DNA from: Candidatus Gastranaerophilales bacterium
GTDB lineage: Bacteria > Cyanobacteriota > Vampirovibrionia > Gastranaerophilales > Gastranaerophilaceae
Assembly (NCBI GenBank): GCA_944323995.1
Contig: CALUUN010000012.1
Coordinates: 1 to 35,926, forward strand
DNA: 35,926 nucleotides
Direction: 5' to 3'
Shown: positions 4,189 through 35,926 of the stretch, in pieces
Position numbering within the stretch: position 1 is the first letter of the stretch
Layout of the letters: each line of letters opens with the position of its first letter
Position numbers and translations under genes: made by a program
The notes under the pieces: model-generated
Database searches by the model: none
Told to the model about the DNA's origin: nothing
What the model saw: the letters and a program-made list of their open reading frames with translations, nothing else

Positions 4189-4215
4189 AATGCGCCTGAC
4201 GGCGCACTTTTTTAA
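4189..4215 (-). terminator. terminator of the prepilin-like gene at 4221-5083
   Basis: On the minus strand GTGCGCC and GGCGCA pair around a GTCA loop (4191-4206), followed by a run of T. It lies just past the stop codon of the prepilin-like gene and shields the downstream DUF3326-like gene from read-through. Confidence 0.75.
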
Positions 4216-4220
4216 TAAAC

Positions 4221-5083
4221 TTACCTGCAATAAATATCTAAGCCATAACCTGTAGTCTTAATACACTTACCATCTAGCCACCACACGCCCGATATCCAAC
4301 AGGAAAATTCAGAACCATTGTGAGCATCTGCCATACTTTTGCATTCATCTTCTGTTTTACAGCCATCCGGATTTTCCAAGGTACACGCAGAAACTTCTTT
4401 TAACTCGCCGGAAACATCCGCAAGCAAACCGTTTCCGGAAATCGAGAATTTATACAAATCTTTCCCGACCATGTTCGGAGAAGATGCTCCGTTTATATCA
4501 GCATATATGTATAAGTTATTTAACTCTTCTCCCTGTTCTATACCGTACAGCATTCCGTCAGTTGTCTGAAATGCGTACGATACATCTTCCCAGTTAAACT
4601 GTGAAGGGCTGTCGTTATCTTCTATCGCATAATCTTTCGGCAATGTTTCCGCATCAAGACCGCCCTTTGTATCGGATAAAATTTTGAATACGTCTTTATG
4701 CGCCTGCGCCACATATTCATCAAAATCGTTTGTGAATGGCAGTTGTGATACATCAAATACCTGATCTTTTGCCATCATTAATTTGTAGCCGTTGATTAAA
4801 ATACTCTTTGTCTTTTTGTATTTAGTTTCAAGAACTTTGTCGTTGTAATGATTTATCAGCGACGGAATAGCAATTGCGGCGACAATACCGATTACGCCTA
4901 TTGTTATTAAAACTTCCGCGAGAGTAAATGCATAGTTTGCGGATTTATAGTAATCAAAAGCGTCGTTCAGCCCGACACTTTCCGAAAAACATGACTTATT
5001 CTCAAAAACCCCCGAAACCCTGTCATAGAGAGGTTTATTATTTACCCCCCCCCAACTTTACATTTCTTAACATCTTTAAACAT
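4221..5083 (-). CDS. prepilin-like protein, frame broken at a poly-G tract (OFF as sequenced)
   Basis: A type IV prepilin/pseudopilin-like protein. ATG 5083 has a strong ribosome site (AGAAGGAG, 5092-5099), but the frame reaches TAA after 13 codons, immediately after nine G. One extra G, or two fewer, joins it to the long downstream frame and gives about 287 residues. That frame carries a long leader, then AFTLAEVLITIGVIGIVAA with the prepilin cleavage site and Glu at +5, then a basic linker and a secreted domain with a DINGASSPNMVGKD motif and several Cys. The N-terminal half is nearly the same as the paralogue at 8212-9069. An internal Met-Met near 4778 is not the start. Slippage in the run would switch the gene; a sequencing error is the alternative. 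Confidence 0.8.
5045..5053 (-). repeat. G9 homopolymer (candidate contingency tract)
   Basis: Nine consecutive G on the coding strand, 31 bases after the ATG of a prepilin-like gene. In a low-GC genome such a run is rare. The length sets the reading frame: 9 closes it, 10 or 7 opens it. Confidence 0.8.
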
Positions 5084-5118
5084 TGCTTTTCTCCTTCTTG
5101 TTAATGTGCTACATGTTT

Positions 5119-5147
5119 AATATATCAGATTTTTTGTTTTTTGGCAA
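5119..5147 (-). promoter_or_regulatory. promoter of the prepilin-like gene at 4221-5083
   Basis: On the minus strand TTGCCA (5147-5142) and TATATT (5124-5119) are separated by 17 bases, giving a start near 5112, about 29 bases upstream of the ATG. Confidence 0.55.
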
Positions 5148-7639: not shown

Positions 7640-8215
7640 ATGGAAAATTGCGAAAACAATTTAATAAATCCTAACTGGGCACAGCACGGTTATATTCAGG
7701 TTTATACCGGAAACGGAAAAGGCAAAACAACCGCATCACTCGGGCTTGCAATGCGGGCGCTCGGCAGATGCTGGAAAGTGCTTATAATAATGTTTACAAA
7801 AGGCGGGGACGATTACGGCGAACTTAATTCGTTCATGAATCTCTCGCCCTCAATCAAAGACAACCTGAAAATCGTTCAGGCAGGTTTGGACAGAATTGTA
7901 TACAAAAATAACGAAACCGAAGACGACGTAAGAGAAATTAAAAAAGGCTGGGAACTTGCAAAAAAAGCCATCAAAAATGACGAATATCAGCTCATAATTC
8001 TTGATGAGGCAAATATCGCAATTGATATGGGAATCCTTGACGTTGACGAAGTTGTAGACGTGCTGAAAAACAAACCCGAAGAAATGGAAATCGTCCTGAC
8101 AGGACGAAATGCTCATCCTAAAATCGTCGAAATTGCCCATCTGGTTTCGGAAATCAAACCGGTGAAACACTACTGGGATACCGGAATCGCTGCAAGAAAA
8201 GGTATTGAATATTAA
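7640..8215 (+). CDS. cobO: corrinoid adenosyltransferase (CobO/BtuR family), copy 1
   Basis: Transfers the adenosyl group of ATP to the cobalt of cob(I)yrinic acid diamide or cobalamin, making the coenzyme form. GNGKGKTT (residues ~21-28) is the P-loop. LIILDEANIAIDMG carries the Walker B-like segment, VLTGRNAH is conserved, and the C-terminus KHYWDTGIAARKGIEY is the family ending. The 191-residue length is normal. GATGAGGG lies before the ATG. A second copy is at 19742-20275. The last 4 bases overlap the convergent prepilin-like gene. No other cobalamin genes are nearby. Confidence 0.93.
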   Translation: MENCENNLINPNWAQHGYIQVYTGNGKGKTTASLGLAMRALGRCWKVLIIMFTKGGDDYGELNSFMNLSPSIKDNLKIVQAGLDRIVYKNNETEDDVREIKKGWELAKKAIKNDEYQLIILDEANIAIDMGILDVDEVVDVLKNKPEEMEIVLTGRNAHPKIVEIAHLVSEIKPVKHYWDTGIAARKGIEY

Positions 8216-9069
8216 CGGCAATACATATTTACACAACTGTAAGTACCAGTCCCTGTAGAAAAATCGTAACTATAATACCATGTACGACAACCTCGACCAT
8301 TACTCCCTCTTTCTCCAAGCCAGTCATTTGAGGCATAACACTGCTCTAATGTCGTGCAATTATCAGGATTGTCAACACACGCCTGCAAATCTGCGGGAGG
8401 TGTTTCTTCCTCTTCCGGTGGGTCAGGAAGCATTTCGCTTGTCCTGTCAACGAATACCCCGTTGCCGGACATTTCAAACATAAAGAAATCTTTACCAACA
8501 ATATTCGGACCGCTTCTACCATTTGTATCTACATAGAAACCAGTTGATTTAGATAATACGTTACCGTCAGTATCTACAGAGCTTTGGCCAAAAACAATAT
8601 AAGACATTCCGTCTGTAATCTGAAAAAAAGGAATTTGATTCGGGAAGGCACTTGCAAAATTTAATTTTTGGTCAGTATTCGGAATACTGTATTCATCTGC
8701 AAAAGCATCTGATAATTGTGCGTTTGTAAAATCCTTTGTTGTTTTAAACACTTCTTTGTGTGCATTTATAAAACAATCAAAATCCTGACATTGCAAAAAG
8801 GCTAAATCTTTTATATCAAAAACCTGCTCTTTTGCCATCATCAGCTTGTAACCGTTGATAAGAATATTTTTTGATTTTTTGTATCTTGTTTCAAGCACTT
8901 TGTCGTTATAGTGATTTATCAATGACGGAAGTGCAATTGCTGCGACAATACCGATTACGCCGATTGTTATTAATACTTCCGCAAGCGTAAACGCATAGTT
9001 TGCCGCCCCGTAATAATCTCCGTTCAGGTTTAAATTTTCTTTATTGATTGCACTTAAGTCTTTTTCCAT
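8212..9069 (-). CDS. prepilin-like protein with 31-residue leader
   Basis: A type IV prepilin/pseudopilin-like protein of 285 residues. The leader is followed by AFTLAEVLITIGVIGIVAA, with the expected cleavage before Phe and Glu at +5, and a membrane-spanning helix. A basic linker and a Cys-containing secreted domain with DTNGRSGPNIVGKD follow; it ends in CVNMYCR. It is a close paralogue of the poly-G gene at 4221-5083, but has no poly-G run. ATG 9069 follows a GAGG site; upstream in-frame starts lack one. TTGACA (9146-9141, minus) with TAATGT 17 bases later is a possible promoter. It diverges from an XRE regulator at 9212, the likely controller. Confidence 0.85.
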   Translation of the reverse strand: MEKDLSAINKENLNLNGDYYGAANYAFTLAEVLITIGVIGIVAAIALPSLINHYNDKVLETRYKKSKNILINGYKLMMAKEQVFDIKDLAFLQCQDFDCFINAHKEVFKTTKDFTNAQLSDAFADEYSIPNTDQKLNFASAFPNQIPFFQITDGMSYIVFGQSSVDTDGNVLSKSTGFYVDTNGRSGPNIVGKDFFMFEMSGNGVFVDRTSEMLPDPPEEEETPPADLQACVDNPDNCTTLEQCYASNDWLGERGSNGRGCRTWYYSYDFSTGTGTYSCVNMYCR

Positions 9070-9199
9070 GTCGCACCTCATATAATATATCATTTTTTAA
9101 CTCTTATTTTATGTATAACATTAACATATTTGATATAATATGTCAATAATTATATTTTATATAATGTGTTACATGATTATTCTTTTGCCCCGAATAGGG

Positions 9200-9205
9200 T
9201 TTAAT
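9200..9205 (+). promoter_or_regulatory. -10-like box 6 nt before the XRE gene ATG
   Basis: TTTAAT is followed by six bases and then ATG 9212. No convincing -35 or ribosome site is seen, consistent with a leaderless transcript. Confidence 0.35.
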
Positions 9206-9211
9206 AAAAGA

Positions 9212-9526
9212 ATGGACATAAGAAAAAAACTCGGCAAACGAATAAAAGAAATCAGACTGCAGCGCAGCCTCTCACAAGAATACGTCGCAAATAAACTGGA
9301 TATAAATCCGTCCAATTATTCAAGAATTGAAACGGGATATTCCTATCCCAAAGCGGAAACTTTGCAAAAACTCTGCCAAGCCCTCAACGTACAGCCAAAA
9401 GACCTCTTTGATTTTGAACACCACAAAGATTTAAGTTCTATTAAAGCCGAACTGATTGATTCTATTCAACAAAATGACGAGCTGGCCGTACTTTTGTATA
9501 AATTTATGAAAACTGTCACGTTCTAA
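9212..9526 (+). CDS. XRE-family HTH regulator (divergent to prepilin-like gene)
   Basis: A 104-residue DNA-binding protein. Residues ~7-62 form a Cro/CI-type HTH (LGKRIKEIRLQRSLSQEYVA, then SNYSRIETG and the PKAETLQKLCQAL helix). The C-terminal ~40 residues are helical and may mediate dimerisation. It is the same length as, and clearly similar to, the regulator at 17967-18281, and both diverge from a prepilin-like gene. An in-frame start at 9140 would add 24 residues without domain sense; ATG 9212 fits the domain. Its stop overlaps that of the small convergent gene at 9523. A local repressor or activator role is inferred from position. Confidence 0.88.
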   Translation: MDIRKKLGKRIKEIRLQRSLSQEYVANKLDINPSNYSRIETGYSYPKAETLQKLCQALNVQPKDLFDFEHHKDLSSIKAELIDSIQQNDELAVLLYKFMKTVTF

Positions 9527-16767: not shown

Positions 16768-17829
16768 TTACTTCATCAGGCATACCGTTTGTTCTGTGAC
16801 ACCTGCCCTATTTGTATAACACCCATGTGATGATGTAGGCCCGAACGCTGCATGAATCGCTCCCTCAATATCACCGCTGCTGCTGACAATACCGGTATCA
16901 GAGCCCCACAAAGAAACAGCATCATCAACAAGGATTTCAAACGAAAATCCCAATTCGGACAACTTTTTATCCTCACGCTGTAAATCCGCCACATCACCCG
17001 GAATAGGCAACCCTGAAGTATTATAAACATAATCAGCTATTTTCGCGATTTGCTCTTTTGTCAACAAATTGGCTGTGCCGCCGCATGCTTTTACCGCAGC
17101 AGCCCAATTATCATTTTCAACAGGACAGGAGTCTATGCCCAAATCATCTTTAACAGCCTCACACTCTGCAATTGATAATGCACCGGCATAAAACGGAGTT
17201 CCGAAACATGCCCCGTCAACCTTAAATGCGCATTGCCCCTTTAATGCAGCATTCAACCCTCTTAAATCTTTTCCGTAGGTATTTGGACTTTTAAACCCCG
17301 AAGTATCATAAATTAATGCAATACAGCTTAAACCGGTAACCTGATTACTGTATTGATCTTGTTTGCAATCTTTATTATTGTAAGCAATCAATCCTGATAT
17401 TCCGTTTGCAAATTGCACACCCCATATTTCAGTTGTCCAATCATCTTTTCCTAAATCAGAGGCTGTTTTTATTGAACTTATGTCAACCTGATTGTTTGAT
17501 AAACTTTTTGTTCCCACATCAATTACATTCCAAACCACATTATCGCTGAAACATTCATCCAAACTGTCAGAATCGCACATTCTGGTTATTTTAAAATGAT
17601 TTTTGAGTTCATTTAAAAAGTCTTCGGTTGTTTGATATCCCGCAAGAGTTCCTTGCACATTCATAACTTTTAAGGCTTCTTCAAGTTTACGTTCAAAAAC
17701 CGCTGATGCAGTGCTCCATGCCCGCTCTTGATAACTCAATATTAAATTAGGGATTGTTAATGCCGCAACAATGCCGATTATGGTCAGTGTAATTAATACT
17801 TCTGCAAGTGTGAAAGCATTTCTCTTCAT
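16768..17829 (-). CDS. prepilin-like protein, short leader, large Cys-containing domain
   Basis: A 353-residue prepilin/pseudopilin-like protein. MKRN is followed directly by AFTLAEVLITLTIIGIVAA, so the leader is only 5 residues, with Glu at +5. The secreted part has about 14 Cys, probably in disulphides, and the motif YDTSGFKSPNTYGKDL, shared in form with the other paralogues. AAGGAG precedes ATG 17829. TTGACA (17891-17886) and GATAAT (17868-17863) with a 17-base spacer give a strong promoter on the minus strand. An XRE regulator diverges from it at 17967. Substrate or assembly partners (peptidase, ATPase, secretin) are not in the window. Confidence 0.88.
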   Translation of the reverse strand: MKRNAFTLAEVLITLTIIGIVAALTIPNLILSYQERAWSTASAVFERKLEEALKVMNVQGTLAGYQTTEDFLNELKNHFKITRMCDSDSLDECFSDNVVWNVIDVGTKSLSNNQVDISSIKTASDLGKDDWTTEIWGVQFANGISGLIAYNNKDCKQDQYSNQVTGLSCIALIYDTSGFKSPNTYGKDLRGLNAALKGQCAFKVDGACFGTPFYAGALSIAECEAVKDDLGIDSCPVENDNWAAAVKACGGTANLLTKEQIAKIADYVYNTSGLPIPGDVADLQREDKKLSELGFSFEILVDDAVSLWGSDTGIVSSSGDIEGAIHAAFGPTSSHGCYTNRAGVTEQTVCLMK

Positions 17830-17891: not shown

Positions 17892-17954
17892 ATATACTGA
17901 TGATTTATTTAAAATTAGATGTTATATAGTATAAAATTATCTGTCATGAATATT

Positions 17955-17960
17955 TATTAT
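17955..17960 (+). promoter_or_regulatory. -10-like box 6 nt before the XRE gene ATG
   Basis: TATTAT, six bases, then ATG 17967. No ribosome site is present, consistent with a leaderless transcript. Confidence 0.45.
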
Positions 17961-17966
17961 AGAGAT

Positions 17967-18281
17967 ATGAACACTAAAGAACTTTTAGGAGTAAGAATAA
18001 AAGAGTTCCGCCGTCGTAAAAAAATGACGCAGGAACAGCTGTCGGAAATTATAGGACTTGACAACGGTTATATCAGCAAACTTGAAATCGGACAGAATTT
18101 TCCGACAATAGGAACACTTGAAAAAATAGCTCAGGCTCTTGATGTTGAGCTTTATGAACTATTCCGCTACACAAATTTAAAAGAACAGGATTTCAAAGCT
18201 GAAATCACGAAAATCTATGACAAATTAAACAAAGAAAAACAGCTTACGCTGTATATGGTTGCAAAAGGTCTTTCGGAATAA
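17967..18281 (+). CDS. XRE-family HTH regulator (divergent to prepilin-like gene)
   Basis: A 104-residue protein with an N-terminal Cro/CI HTH: LLGVRIKEFRRRKKMTQEQLSE, then GYISKLEIGQNFPTIGTLEK. A helical C-terminus follows. It has the same length and layout as the regulator at 9212-9526, and like it diverges from a prepilin-like gene. An in-frame start 16 codons earlier adds no domain and has no ribosome site. A stem-loop after the stop separates it from the convergent gene at 18328. Control of the neighbouring pilin-like gene is inferred from position. Confidence 0.88.
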   Translation: MNTKELLGVRIKEFRRRKKMTQEQLSEIIGLDNGYISKLEIGQNFPTIGTLEKIAQALDVELYELFRYTNLKEQDFKAEITKIYDKLNKEKQLTLYMVAKGLSE

Positions 18282-19722: not shown

Positions 19723-19741
19723 TATAATCTTGGAGGTTATT

Positions 19742-20275
19742 GTGTTACAGCACGGGTACATACAAATTTATACGGGAGACGGCAAAGGAAAAACAACGGC
19801 ATCATTAGGACTTGCCCTGAGAGCTCTGGGGCATGGCTGGAAAGTTCTTATTATCCAGTTTACAAAAGGCGACAGCGCAACTTCCTACGGCGAAATTGTT
19901 TCTTCTTCAAAATTTTTGCCCAACCTTGATGTTGTTCAGTTCGGTATGGACAGAGTATGCTATTCACACAATGTCTGCATGGATGACTACAAAGAAGCAA
20001 AACGCGGCTGGGAATTTGCTAAAAAAGCAATTCAATCAGGTGAATACCAGCTTATAATCCTTGATGAAATTAACATCTGCACCGCAATGAACATGATTAA
20101 AGTTTCAGATGTTAAAGAAGCACTTTTGAATAAACCCGAAAACCTTGAAATCGTACTTACGGGACGCTATGCGCACCCTGAACTTAAGGCAATGGCCCAC
20201 CTTGTAACCGAAATGAAACCGATAAAACACTATTTTGATATCGGCGTTATGGCAAGACAGGGCATTGAATATTAG
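19742..20275 (+). CDS. cobO: corrinoid adenosyltransferase (CobO/BtuR family), copy 2
   Basis: Second copy of the ATP:corrinoid adenosyltransferase, 177 residues. P-loop GDGKGKTT, LIILDEINICTAMN, VLTGRYAH and the ending KHYFDIGVMARQGIEY correspond part by part to copy 1 at 7640-8215. The two differ at many other places, so the duplication is not recent. GGAGGT lies 5-6 bases before GTG 19742, which I take as the start; TTG 19730 is in frame but overlaps the ribosome site. TATAAT at 19723 gives a nearby promoter. It is monocistronic, ended by a terminator before the rpsB promoter. Confidence 0.92.
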   Translation: MLQHGYIQIYTGDGKGKTTASLGLALRALGHGWKVLIIQFTKGDSATSYGEIVSSSKFLPNLDVVQFGMDRVCYSHNVCMDDYKEAKRGWEFAKKAIQSGEYQLIILDEINICTAMNMIKVSDVKEALLNKPENLEIVLTGRYAHPELKAMAHLVTEMKPIKHYFDIGVMARQGIEY

Positions 20276-32073: not shown

Positions 32074-33033
32074 ATGAATTTTAAAAATATTTTCAAATAC
32101 ATATTTTCTGTTGATACAAAAAGCACAAACAGAATAATCGTATATTTTTTAGGGATAAAATTCCGGCATCTCAAGCCCGGAGTAAAAGAGGCTGGAGAAA
32201 AATTCAACAAACTTGATTGTCCGGTGACGGAAATTCCAAAAGCATCCGGAACTTTACGAAAAATCCAGCTTGCAAATTTAAAGATGATGCTTATTTTTGA
32301 CAGACTGTGCTCCGAAAACGGGCTTGAATACTGGCTTGATTTCGGCAATCTTCTCGGTGCGGTCAGACACAAAGGCTTTATTCCGTGGGATGATGATGTT
32401 GACGTCAGCATGACAAGGGATGATTATGAAAAATTTATTGAACTTTTTAGAAACGGAATCCCGAAATACGGCGACCTTTATCTGAAATTTAACAACAACG
32501 GAAAAAACAAATGTTTTTTAAAAATTCTGCACAAAAAATTACCGAATATTGCGGTGGACGTATTCCCGTACGATTTTTACCATAAAAAAATTAATCAGGA
32601 AGAACAAAAACATATAACAAAAGAAATAAAGAAAATAATACACAATCCGTTTTACAAACTGCTCTGTCCGTTTTTTATAAACAATCCCGACGGCATGCGA
32701 AAAAGATTTAAAAAACTGAGGGACGCAAAAATCCTGAAAAATATAATCCCTGAAAGGGAAGTAAGCCCCCCCCTATTTTACGGTATTGATTATCCGCACA
32801 GTTATAATAACTATTTTTTTGATTACGACAAAATATTTCCGCTCAAGAAAATACTTTATGAGGGTTTGGAATTTTCCTGTCCGAATAATCCTGATTTTGT
32901 ATTGAAGCAGATTTTCGGCGACTATATGAAACTTCCGCAGGATTGTTATCCGCGCCATACAGGCAACGAAATTTTTCAGGGCGAACTCAAAGAAGAATTA
33001 GATAAATTTACGGGTGATATATATGCAAAATAA
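32074..33033 (+). CDS. LicD-family phosphotransferase-like protein
   Basis: A 319-residue LicD-type nucleotidyltransferase-fold enzyme. Relatives transfer phosphocholine or other phospho-groups from CDP-linked donors to surface glycans. The core is LEYWLDFGNLLGAVRHKGF followed by PWDDDVDV (~92-110), with the metal-binding Asp residues. A run of eight C (32766-32773) lies at about codon 231; the frame is intact as sequenced. AAGGA precedes the ATG, partly inside an inverted repeat. It overlaps the aminotransferase by 11 bases, and the four genes to 35558 look like one surface-glycan set. Confidence 0.9.
   Translation: MNFKNIFKYIFSVDTKSTNRIIVYFLGIKFRHLKPGVKEAGEKFNKLDCPVTEIPKASGTLRKIQLANLKMMLIFDRLCSENGLEYWLDFGNLLGAVRHKGFIPWDDDVDVSMTRDDYEKFIELFRNGIPKYGDLYLKFNNNGKNKCFLKILHKKLPNIAVDVFPYDFYHKKINQEEQKHITKEIKKIIHNPFYKLLCPFFINNPDGMRKRFKKLRDAKILKNIIPEREVSPPLFYGIDYPHSYNNYFFDYDKIFPLKKILYEGLEFSCPNNPDFVLKQIFGDYMKLPQDCYPRHTGNEIFQGELKEELDKFTGDIYAK
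32766..32773 (+). repeat. C8 homopolymer inside the LicD-like gene
   Basis: Eight C in coding sequence (Ser-Pro-Pro-Leu). Any change by one or two bases would cut the protein at about 73% of its length. It is the third long G/C run in the window. Confidence 0.7.
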
Positions 33034-35630: not shown

Positions 35631-35926
35631 ATGACCAAAAACGCAGACTACATCACCTCCTTGAGTGGGGGGGGGGCTGTAAATCAGCTTCACGTGCTGA
35701 ATACAGCGATTTGATAACCCAAAAAGCTAAATCAGCCTTCACTTTAGCGGAAGTGACTGAAACACAACAACACATTGGACTTTGCTCTAGAGGCTTTACG
35801 CTTGCCGAAGTCTTGATAACCTTAGCAATTATCGGCATAGTAGCCGCACTAACAATCCCGACACTTGTGCAGAACTTTCAAACAAGATCATGGGATACAG
35901 CATCAGAAGTATTTCAAAGAAAACTG
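35631..35926 (+). CDS. prepilin-like protein, frame broken at a poly-G tract (OFF as sequenced), cut by the window end
   Basis: ATG 35631 has GGAGG 8 bases upstream and a near-perfect promoter. The frame runs through ten G (35667-35676) and stops at TGA 35712-35714 after 27 codons. With one more G, or two fewer, it joins a frame that stays open to the window end and encodes a long leader, then GFTLAEVLITLAIIGIVAALT with the prepilin cleavage site and Glu at +5, and a NFQTRSWDTASEVFQRKL linker like those at 16768-17829 and 27766-28599. The leader contains a second, earlier AFTLAEV copy, 21 residues upstream. ATG 35604 in the same frame lies too near the -10. An assembly error in the run is the alternative. 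Confidence 0.8.
35667..35676 (+). repeat. G10 homopolymer (candidate contingency tract)
   Basis: Ten G starting 36 bases after the ATG of a prepilin-like gene. Lengths 8 or 11 open the pilin frame; 10 and 9 close it (9 meets TAA at once). Confidence 0.8.

Follow-up and report, generated by a model that had tools for sequence, protein, structure and literature searches.

The best-known cases of phase variation through runs of guanines come from a few pathogens, whose tracts affect genes of many functions; the poly-G contingency loci of Campylobacter jejuni, for example, comprise tens of G8-G11 tracts in a genome of ~1.7 Mb. On average, a Neisseria genome carries 15-19 poly-G tracts with a modal length of 9-10, and the phase-variable loci of the Neisseria phasome comprise pilC (G 9-20), pgl, lgt and opa (PMC5953494). 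In Bifidobacterium breve UCC2003, an early G-tract in the first gene of a sortase pilus splits off a short 5' ORF, which encodes the signal sequence, from the main ORF; the two are fused by replication slippage, and lengths of 10-12 occur in related strains (PMC9187656). Error-corrected sequencing revealed mixed tract lengths in this organism, the length that permits expression being enriched in mice (PMC9187656).

Anatomy of the prepilin-like locus

The window, i.e. the whole stretch of 35,926 nucleotides that was analysed, comes from an uncultured gut bacterium with cyanobacterial affinities, whose genome measures 1.75 Mb in 35 contigs and is 99.9% complete. It carries on its minus strand, at 5147-4221, a prepilin-like gene that is OFF as assembled. 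The locus comprises (i) a sigma-70-type promoter, TTGCCA-17-TATATT with TG before the -10 element (5119-5147; 10 of 12 consensus positions), (ii) a ribosome-binding site, AGGAG (5091-5095), (iii) an ATG (5083-5081) opening the 10-codon leader MFKDVKKCKV (5054-5083), (iv) a frame-setting run of nine G (5045-5053, C9 on the plus strand) that begins 30 nt 3' of this well-placed ATG, (v) the stops that close both non-prepilin frames (5037-5044, with TAA at 5044-5042 and TAA at 5040-5038), (vi) a pyrimidine element, CCTCTC (5028-5033), which recurs 3' of G runs and is predicted to pair with the run, (vii) the remainder of the long leader, which ends at the predicted A/F cleavage site (4929-5044), and (viii) the mature prepilin-like body, FTLAEVLITIG..., of 235 codons plus stop (4221-4928). 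A terminator-like hairpin lies at the 3' end of the gene (4191-4206).

As assembled, the ATG frame encodes MFKDVKKCKVGGG and then ends, the TAA at 5044-5042 standing directly after the run; the prepilin frame contains no stop over 277 codons. A computed frame check over run lengths 8-11 discloses a single length, 10, that joins the ATG to the prepilin frame, the other three giving short peptides, with lengths 8 and 11 likewise terminating at once. The prepilin frame cannot initiate alone because its earliest ATG/GTG/TTG, at 4778, comes after the pilin helix. The run also stands above chance expectation, since G7 words occur nine times in the window against 1.0 in shuffles. The initial annotation had described a promoter, ribosome site, ATG and pilin frame that are all present, a nine-G run placing the ATG one base out of frame, and ~280 downstream codons without a stop; each of these was located or computed as described above.

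The encoded protein passes the profile cut-offs of the prepilin cleavage/methylation motif, with Glu at +5 (PF07963, 21.8 bits against a cut-off of 21.2; TIGR02532, 20.9 against 16.3). A structure model built with 40 relatives displays an N-terminal helix (residues 5-56) followed by a β-sheet (pLDDT 75.7), and the VIA list was headed by solved type IV pilins, but with a modest Z of only 5.3; a Foldseek search of the PDB with the prepilin model gave no significant match. The genome encodes one PilD-like prepilin peptidase and four T2SSE-type ATPase genes. The product is taken to be a type IV prepilin-like surface protein; its secretion through the single PilD-like peptidase and its assembly into pili are inferred. 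A tblastn search with the protein against genome contigs, its own genome excluded, returned no relative. The closest paralogue, on contig C5, is 74% identical over the whole protein and the paralogue within the window 54%; the near-identity to a paralogue originally proposed holds for the N-terminal ~60 residues only.

G runs and prepilin leaders in the genome and the family

The protein matches 80 sequences in its own genome, ~75 of them distinct prepilin-like genes. Inspection of the surroundings of all 38 G8+ runs placed 34 in the 5' leaders of prepilins and the remaining four elsewhere; 28 of the 38 lie on the sense strand of a leader whose prepilin motif follows on that contig, and six, bearing the same leader sequences, are found at contig ends, where the assembly breaks. 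Prepilin leaders make up ~1% of the strand-length, which rules out chance placement of the 28 runs (binomial, ~1e-47). Several leader types carry G runs, and near-identical copies of one type read G10, G12 and G13. Contigs C2, C3, C11, C14, C20, C25, C27 and C28 break off precisely at the repeated leader and its G run or within them, and the count of tract-bearing prepilins is consequently a lower bound.

A second G run in the window, G10 (35667-35676, plus strand), lies in another leader type (ATG 35631, MTKNADYITSLS) and is also out of frame as assembled; its prepilin body (35795-35926, plus strand) is truncated by the contig end. Read in frame, 35631-35926 contains two consecutive prepilin motifs (SAFTLAEV...RGFTLAEV), as if one leader had been inserted before another. 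An internal start at the run was considered for one leader family (TAAATGGGGGGGGG) and dropped as not general. One of the four G8+ runs outside prepilin leaders is an eight-C run (32766-32773) inside a LicD/cholinephosphotransferase-like gene (32074-33033).

Beyond this genome, G8+ runs occur in all 16 genomes of the genus, with 11 to 107 in each. Among 244 genomes drawn from the phylum, a search for nine G followed after 21-81 bases by [A/G]-FTLAE gave matches in 52 of ~110 genomes sampled from this bacterium's family, covering 12 genera, and in none of ~134 genomes outside the family; the reversed control pattern matched none of the 244. In a scan of named genomes, the matches listed are mostly labelled Candidatus Gastranaerophilales or Melainabacteria, the others listed being unnamed bacteria, labels such as CAG:439 and one Spirochaetales, and these other labels preclude a claim of exclusivity from that scan. 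The Spirochaetales record (L121) could reflect a mislabelled bin, transfer or an independent origin.

Proposed slipped-strand phase variation

We hold with considerable confidence, from sequence evidence alone, that the best explanation of this locus is slipped-strand phase variation that extends across a single large prepilin family, neither expression nor switching within a population having been shown. According to the proposed mechanism, the ribosome would initiate at the ATG upstream of the G run; at the in-frame length (10, among 8-11) it would enter the prepilin frame, and with one base more or fewer it would terminate after only a few codons. Slippage during replication would lengthen or shorten the run reversibly, and cells of one population would then differ in whether they make this prepilin. 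Because the same switch stands on ~34 prepilin leaders of the genome, many independent switches would together determine which fibre proteins are made. The anatomy, the frames, the recurrence, the length differences and the selection are read directly from the DNA; slippage as their cause, and its reversibility, are inferred.

The locus resembles a contingency locus in three respects: (i) a homopolymer of at least 8-9 bases sits in the 5' part of the gene and sets the frame, (ii) close copies differ in run length and frame and in little else, and (iii) the gene is kept intact by selection though out of frame. The second point relies on a comparison of all run loci between two congeneric genomes, G005 and G010, where loci L345 and L276 share ~1.4 kb including the promoter, leader, run and pilin gene and differ by one SNP and one G; the G10 copy reads through a complete prepilin, the G9 copy encodes a 15-residue peptide. 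Loci with common upstream neighbours also differ in run length (9/10, 9/10, 8/9 and 10/12), which is weaker evidence because their leaders have diverged too. The initial annotation had suggested comparing run length among relatives, and at matching loci it does differ and shift the frame. Three caveats apply: homopolymer lengths in draft assemblies may be wrong, identical leaders have perhaps been collapsed (one leader reads G9 in all of its 12 copies), and start codons were given by rule.

The third point relies on dN/dS values of 0.18-0.25 between the 5147-4221 gene and five paralogues, and of 0.10-0.33 for the other informative pairs, some of which have both members out of frame as assembled; one additional pair was identical in the pilin body. 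Judged by these ratios, purifying selection acts on pilins even where the assembly has them out of frame. In tract leaders from other genomes, the frame from the run to the motif is open in 136 of 139. Both the selection on the frame and the slipped-strand switching first proposed for this gene are thus supported as far as genome comparison reaches, the latter by frame-changing run lengths, selection, closed wrong frames and recurrence in 12 genera and, within a genome, in dozens of prepilin genes.

Alternative explanations

Out-of-frame copies could instead be silent donor cassettes that feed recombination into expressed pilins, as Neisseria pilS does. The case for this is one of modularity: pilin bodies 80-93% identical follow leaders of different kinds, some carrying a run and some not, and the L345/L276 block, which spans ~-255 to +1181 around the run, is common to two genomes whose flanks are 15-20% divergent. 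The divergence of the flanks implies that the block was recently exchanged and that the run has changed since or is misread in one of the two assemblies; whole leader-plus-pilin cassettes have recently been exchanged between the two species. However, each out-of-frame copy still has a complete gene with its promoter, ribosome site and start codon, and its defect invariably lies at the G run. The absence of promoter and start codon that marks a pilS-like copy is not met at 5147-4221, where both are present. We therefore regard donor cassettes as an unlikely account of the run, while exchange may well occur in addition to switching.

The same modularity bears on prepilins without a tract. Tract-free relatives that read in frame exist in the window (8212-9093, minus strand, 54% identity) and in G010 (L085). 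Loss of the run in relatives with the gene in frame had been named as an observation that would refute phase variation; such relatives are found, and they are not judged a refutation because tract-bearing and tract-free leaders coexist and exchange. A divergent XRE/RstR-like HTH gene lies directly upstream of 12 of 44 tract-free prepilins, whereas the 29 tract-bearing prepilins have none (Fisher p 0.002), which suggests two alternative modes of control, by an HTH regulator or by a G run. Within the window, the tract-free paralogue at 8212-9093 has such a divergent regulator at 9140-9526 (plus strand); HTH genes at 9140-9526 and 17919-18281 (both plus strand) adjoin the prepilins at 8212-9093 and 16768-17829 (both minus strand). 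Two similar ORFs, at 7640-8215 and 19730-20275, resemble ATP:corrinoid adenosyltransferases, from reading of the translations only.

A second alternative leaves the DNA unchanged and places the correction on RNA, either by a -1 shift of the ribosome at the slippery run or by addition of a G by RNA polymerase, so that a one-short gene would be expressed at a fixed level. This recoding remains a rival because runs one G short are the commonest: the 111 non-redundant leaders comprise 64 one short, 26 one long and 21 in frame (chi-square p 3e-7, with in-frame copies rarer than one third), and the 64 are in a phase that a -1 shift would rescue. The excess of one-short runs is also seen genome by genome (37 of 50 in G005, 22 of 30 in G010, 19 of 28 in the own genome), the nearest in-frame lengths being nearly all 10 or 11. 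A CTCC-type element is enriched after the run, in 53 of the 111 leaders against 11 in shuffles, and its role is unassigned; it is predicted to pair with the run, but such pairing is common in shuffled sequence too (104 of 111 leaders against 91). Complementarity between the ribosome site and the post-run element lies above shuffles and slightly above swapped partners (8 of 2000). Sequestration of the Shine-Dalgarno sequence in a hairpin of these two elements was examined separately and is not claimed, because swapped partners fold as often (44 of 111 against 41-57).

Against recoding, a programmed -1 frameshift site requires a fixed, -1-rescuable phase, which only the 64 leaders have; in-frame copies exist, 26 leaders are in a phase beyond -1 rescue, and one leader family shows multiple phases (G10, G12, G13). 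Moreover, nearby stops are found in both wrong frames and not in the zero frame alone. The one-short frame meets a stop at a median of 9 nt, within 15 nt in 84 of the 111 leaders, and the one-long frame at a median of 13 nt, within 15 nt in 65, against 34 in shuffles. This double closure is expected of an ON/OFF switch and unnecessary for a -1 frameshift site. Recoding is accordingly held to be rather improbable. Under slipped-strand phase variation, the excess of one-short runs calls for a further factor, as symmetric slippage alone does not predict it; contraction bias together with selection for the OFF state, loss of one G in assembly, or rescue on RNA could each contribute.

The assembly might also be in error, the true run being in frame and the assembled one a G short. 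Homopolymer lengths in drafts are error-prone, and run lengths in databases are reported to depart from the error-corrected ones (PMC9187656). Nevertheless, the same phases appear in records from many different assemblies, the G12 and G13 copies deviate in other directions, and independent early stops in both wrong frames are no effect of assembly, which leaves this reading very doubtful. Decay into pseudogenes, for which only the broken frame as assembled speaks, is hardly tenable given that 136 of 139 leaders from elsewhere have no other stop, that dN/dS is ~0.2 and that the defect is confined to a single site.

Meaning and comparison with known systems

Taken at its widest, slipped-strand phase variation would amount to a genome-wide bank of dozens of independent switches, with one G short as the usual state, both wrong frames closed, an HTH-controlled set beside it and a combinatorial fibre coat as the outcome; this larger picture is offered tentatively, the balance lying slightly on the side of doubt. 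In a widespread, uncultured gut lineage, nearly all G runs of a 1.75 Mb genome stand on one large family of fibre proteins. If the switches work, each cell could display one of very many fibre sets, with consequences for how gut Gastranaerophilales attach, escape phages and are recognised by the immune system. Annotation of such genomes will miss many pilins, because these are out of frame as assembled.

In the literature searched, a concentration of G runs on the prepilins of gut Gastranaerophilales was not found, nor a paper linking Gastranaerophilales or Melainabacteria to phase variation; papers on Melainabacteria mention type IV pilus genes in general terms only. The kind of switch is already known, since the G-tract systems of B. 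breve and Neisseria have been described. What differs is the distribution of the tracts. Campylobacter jejuni also carries tens of G tracts in a genome of similar size, but mostly in glycan, modification and surface enzymes rather than in a prepilin family. Neisseria likewise turns frames ON and OFF through poly-G runs of nine or more in surface genes, several of them linked to type IV pili (PMC5953494); there, however, the tracts serve many different functions and variation of the major pilin arises through recombination, whereas here ~90% of the runs stand on one prepilin family. The nearest described system is that of B. breve, a gut commensal in which an early G-tract also switches a pilin gene (PMC9187656). 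That organism is Gram-positive and has one or two sortase-pilus clusters per genome, in contrast to the type IV-like prepilins and the ~34 switches in a single genome described here.
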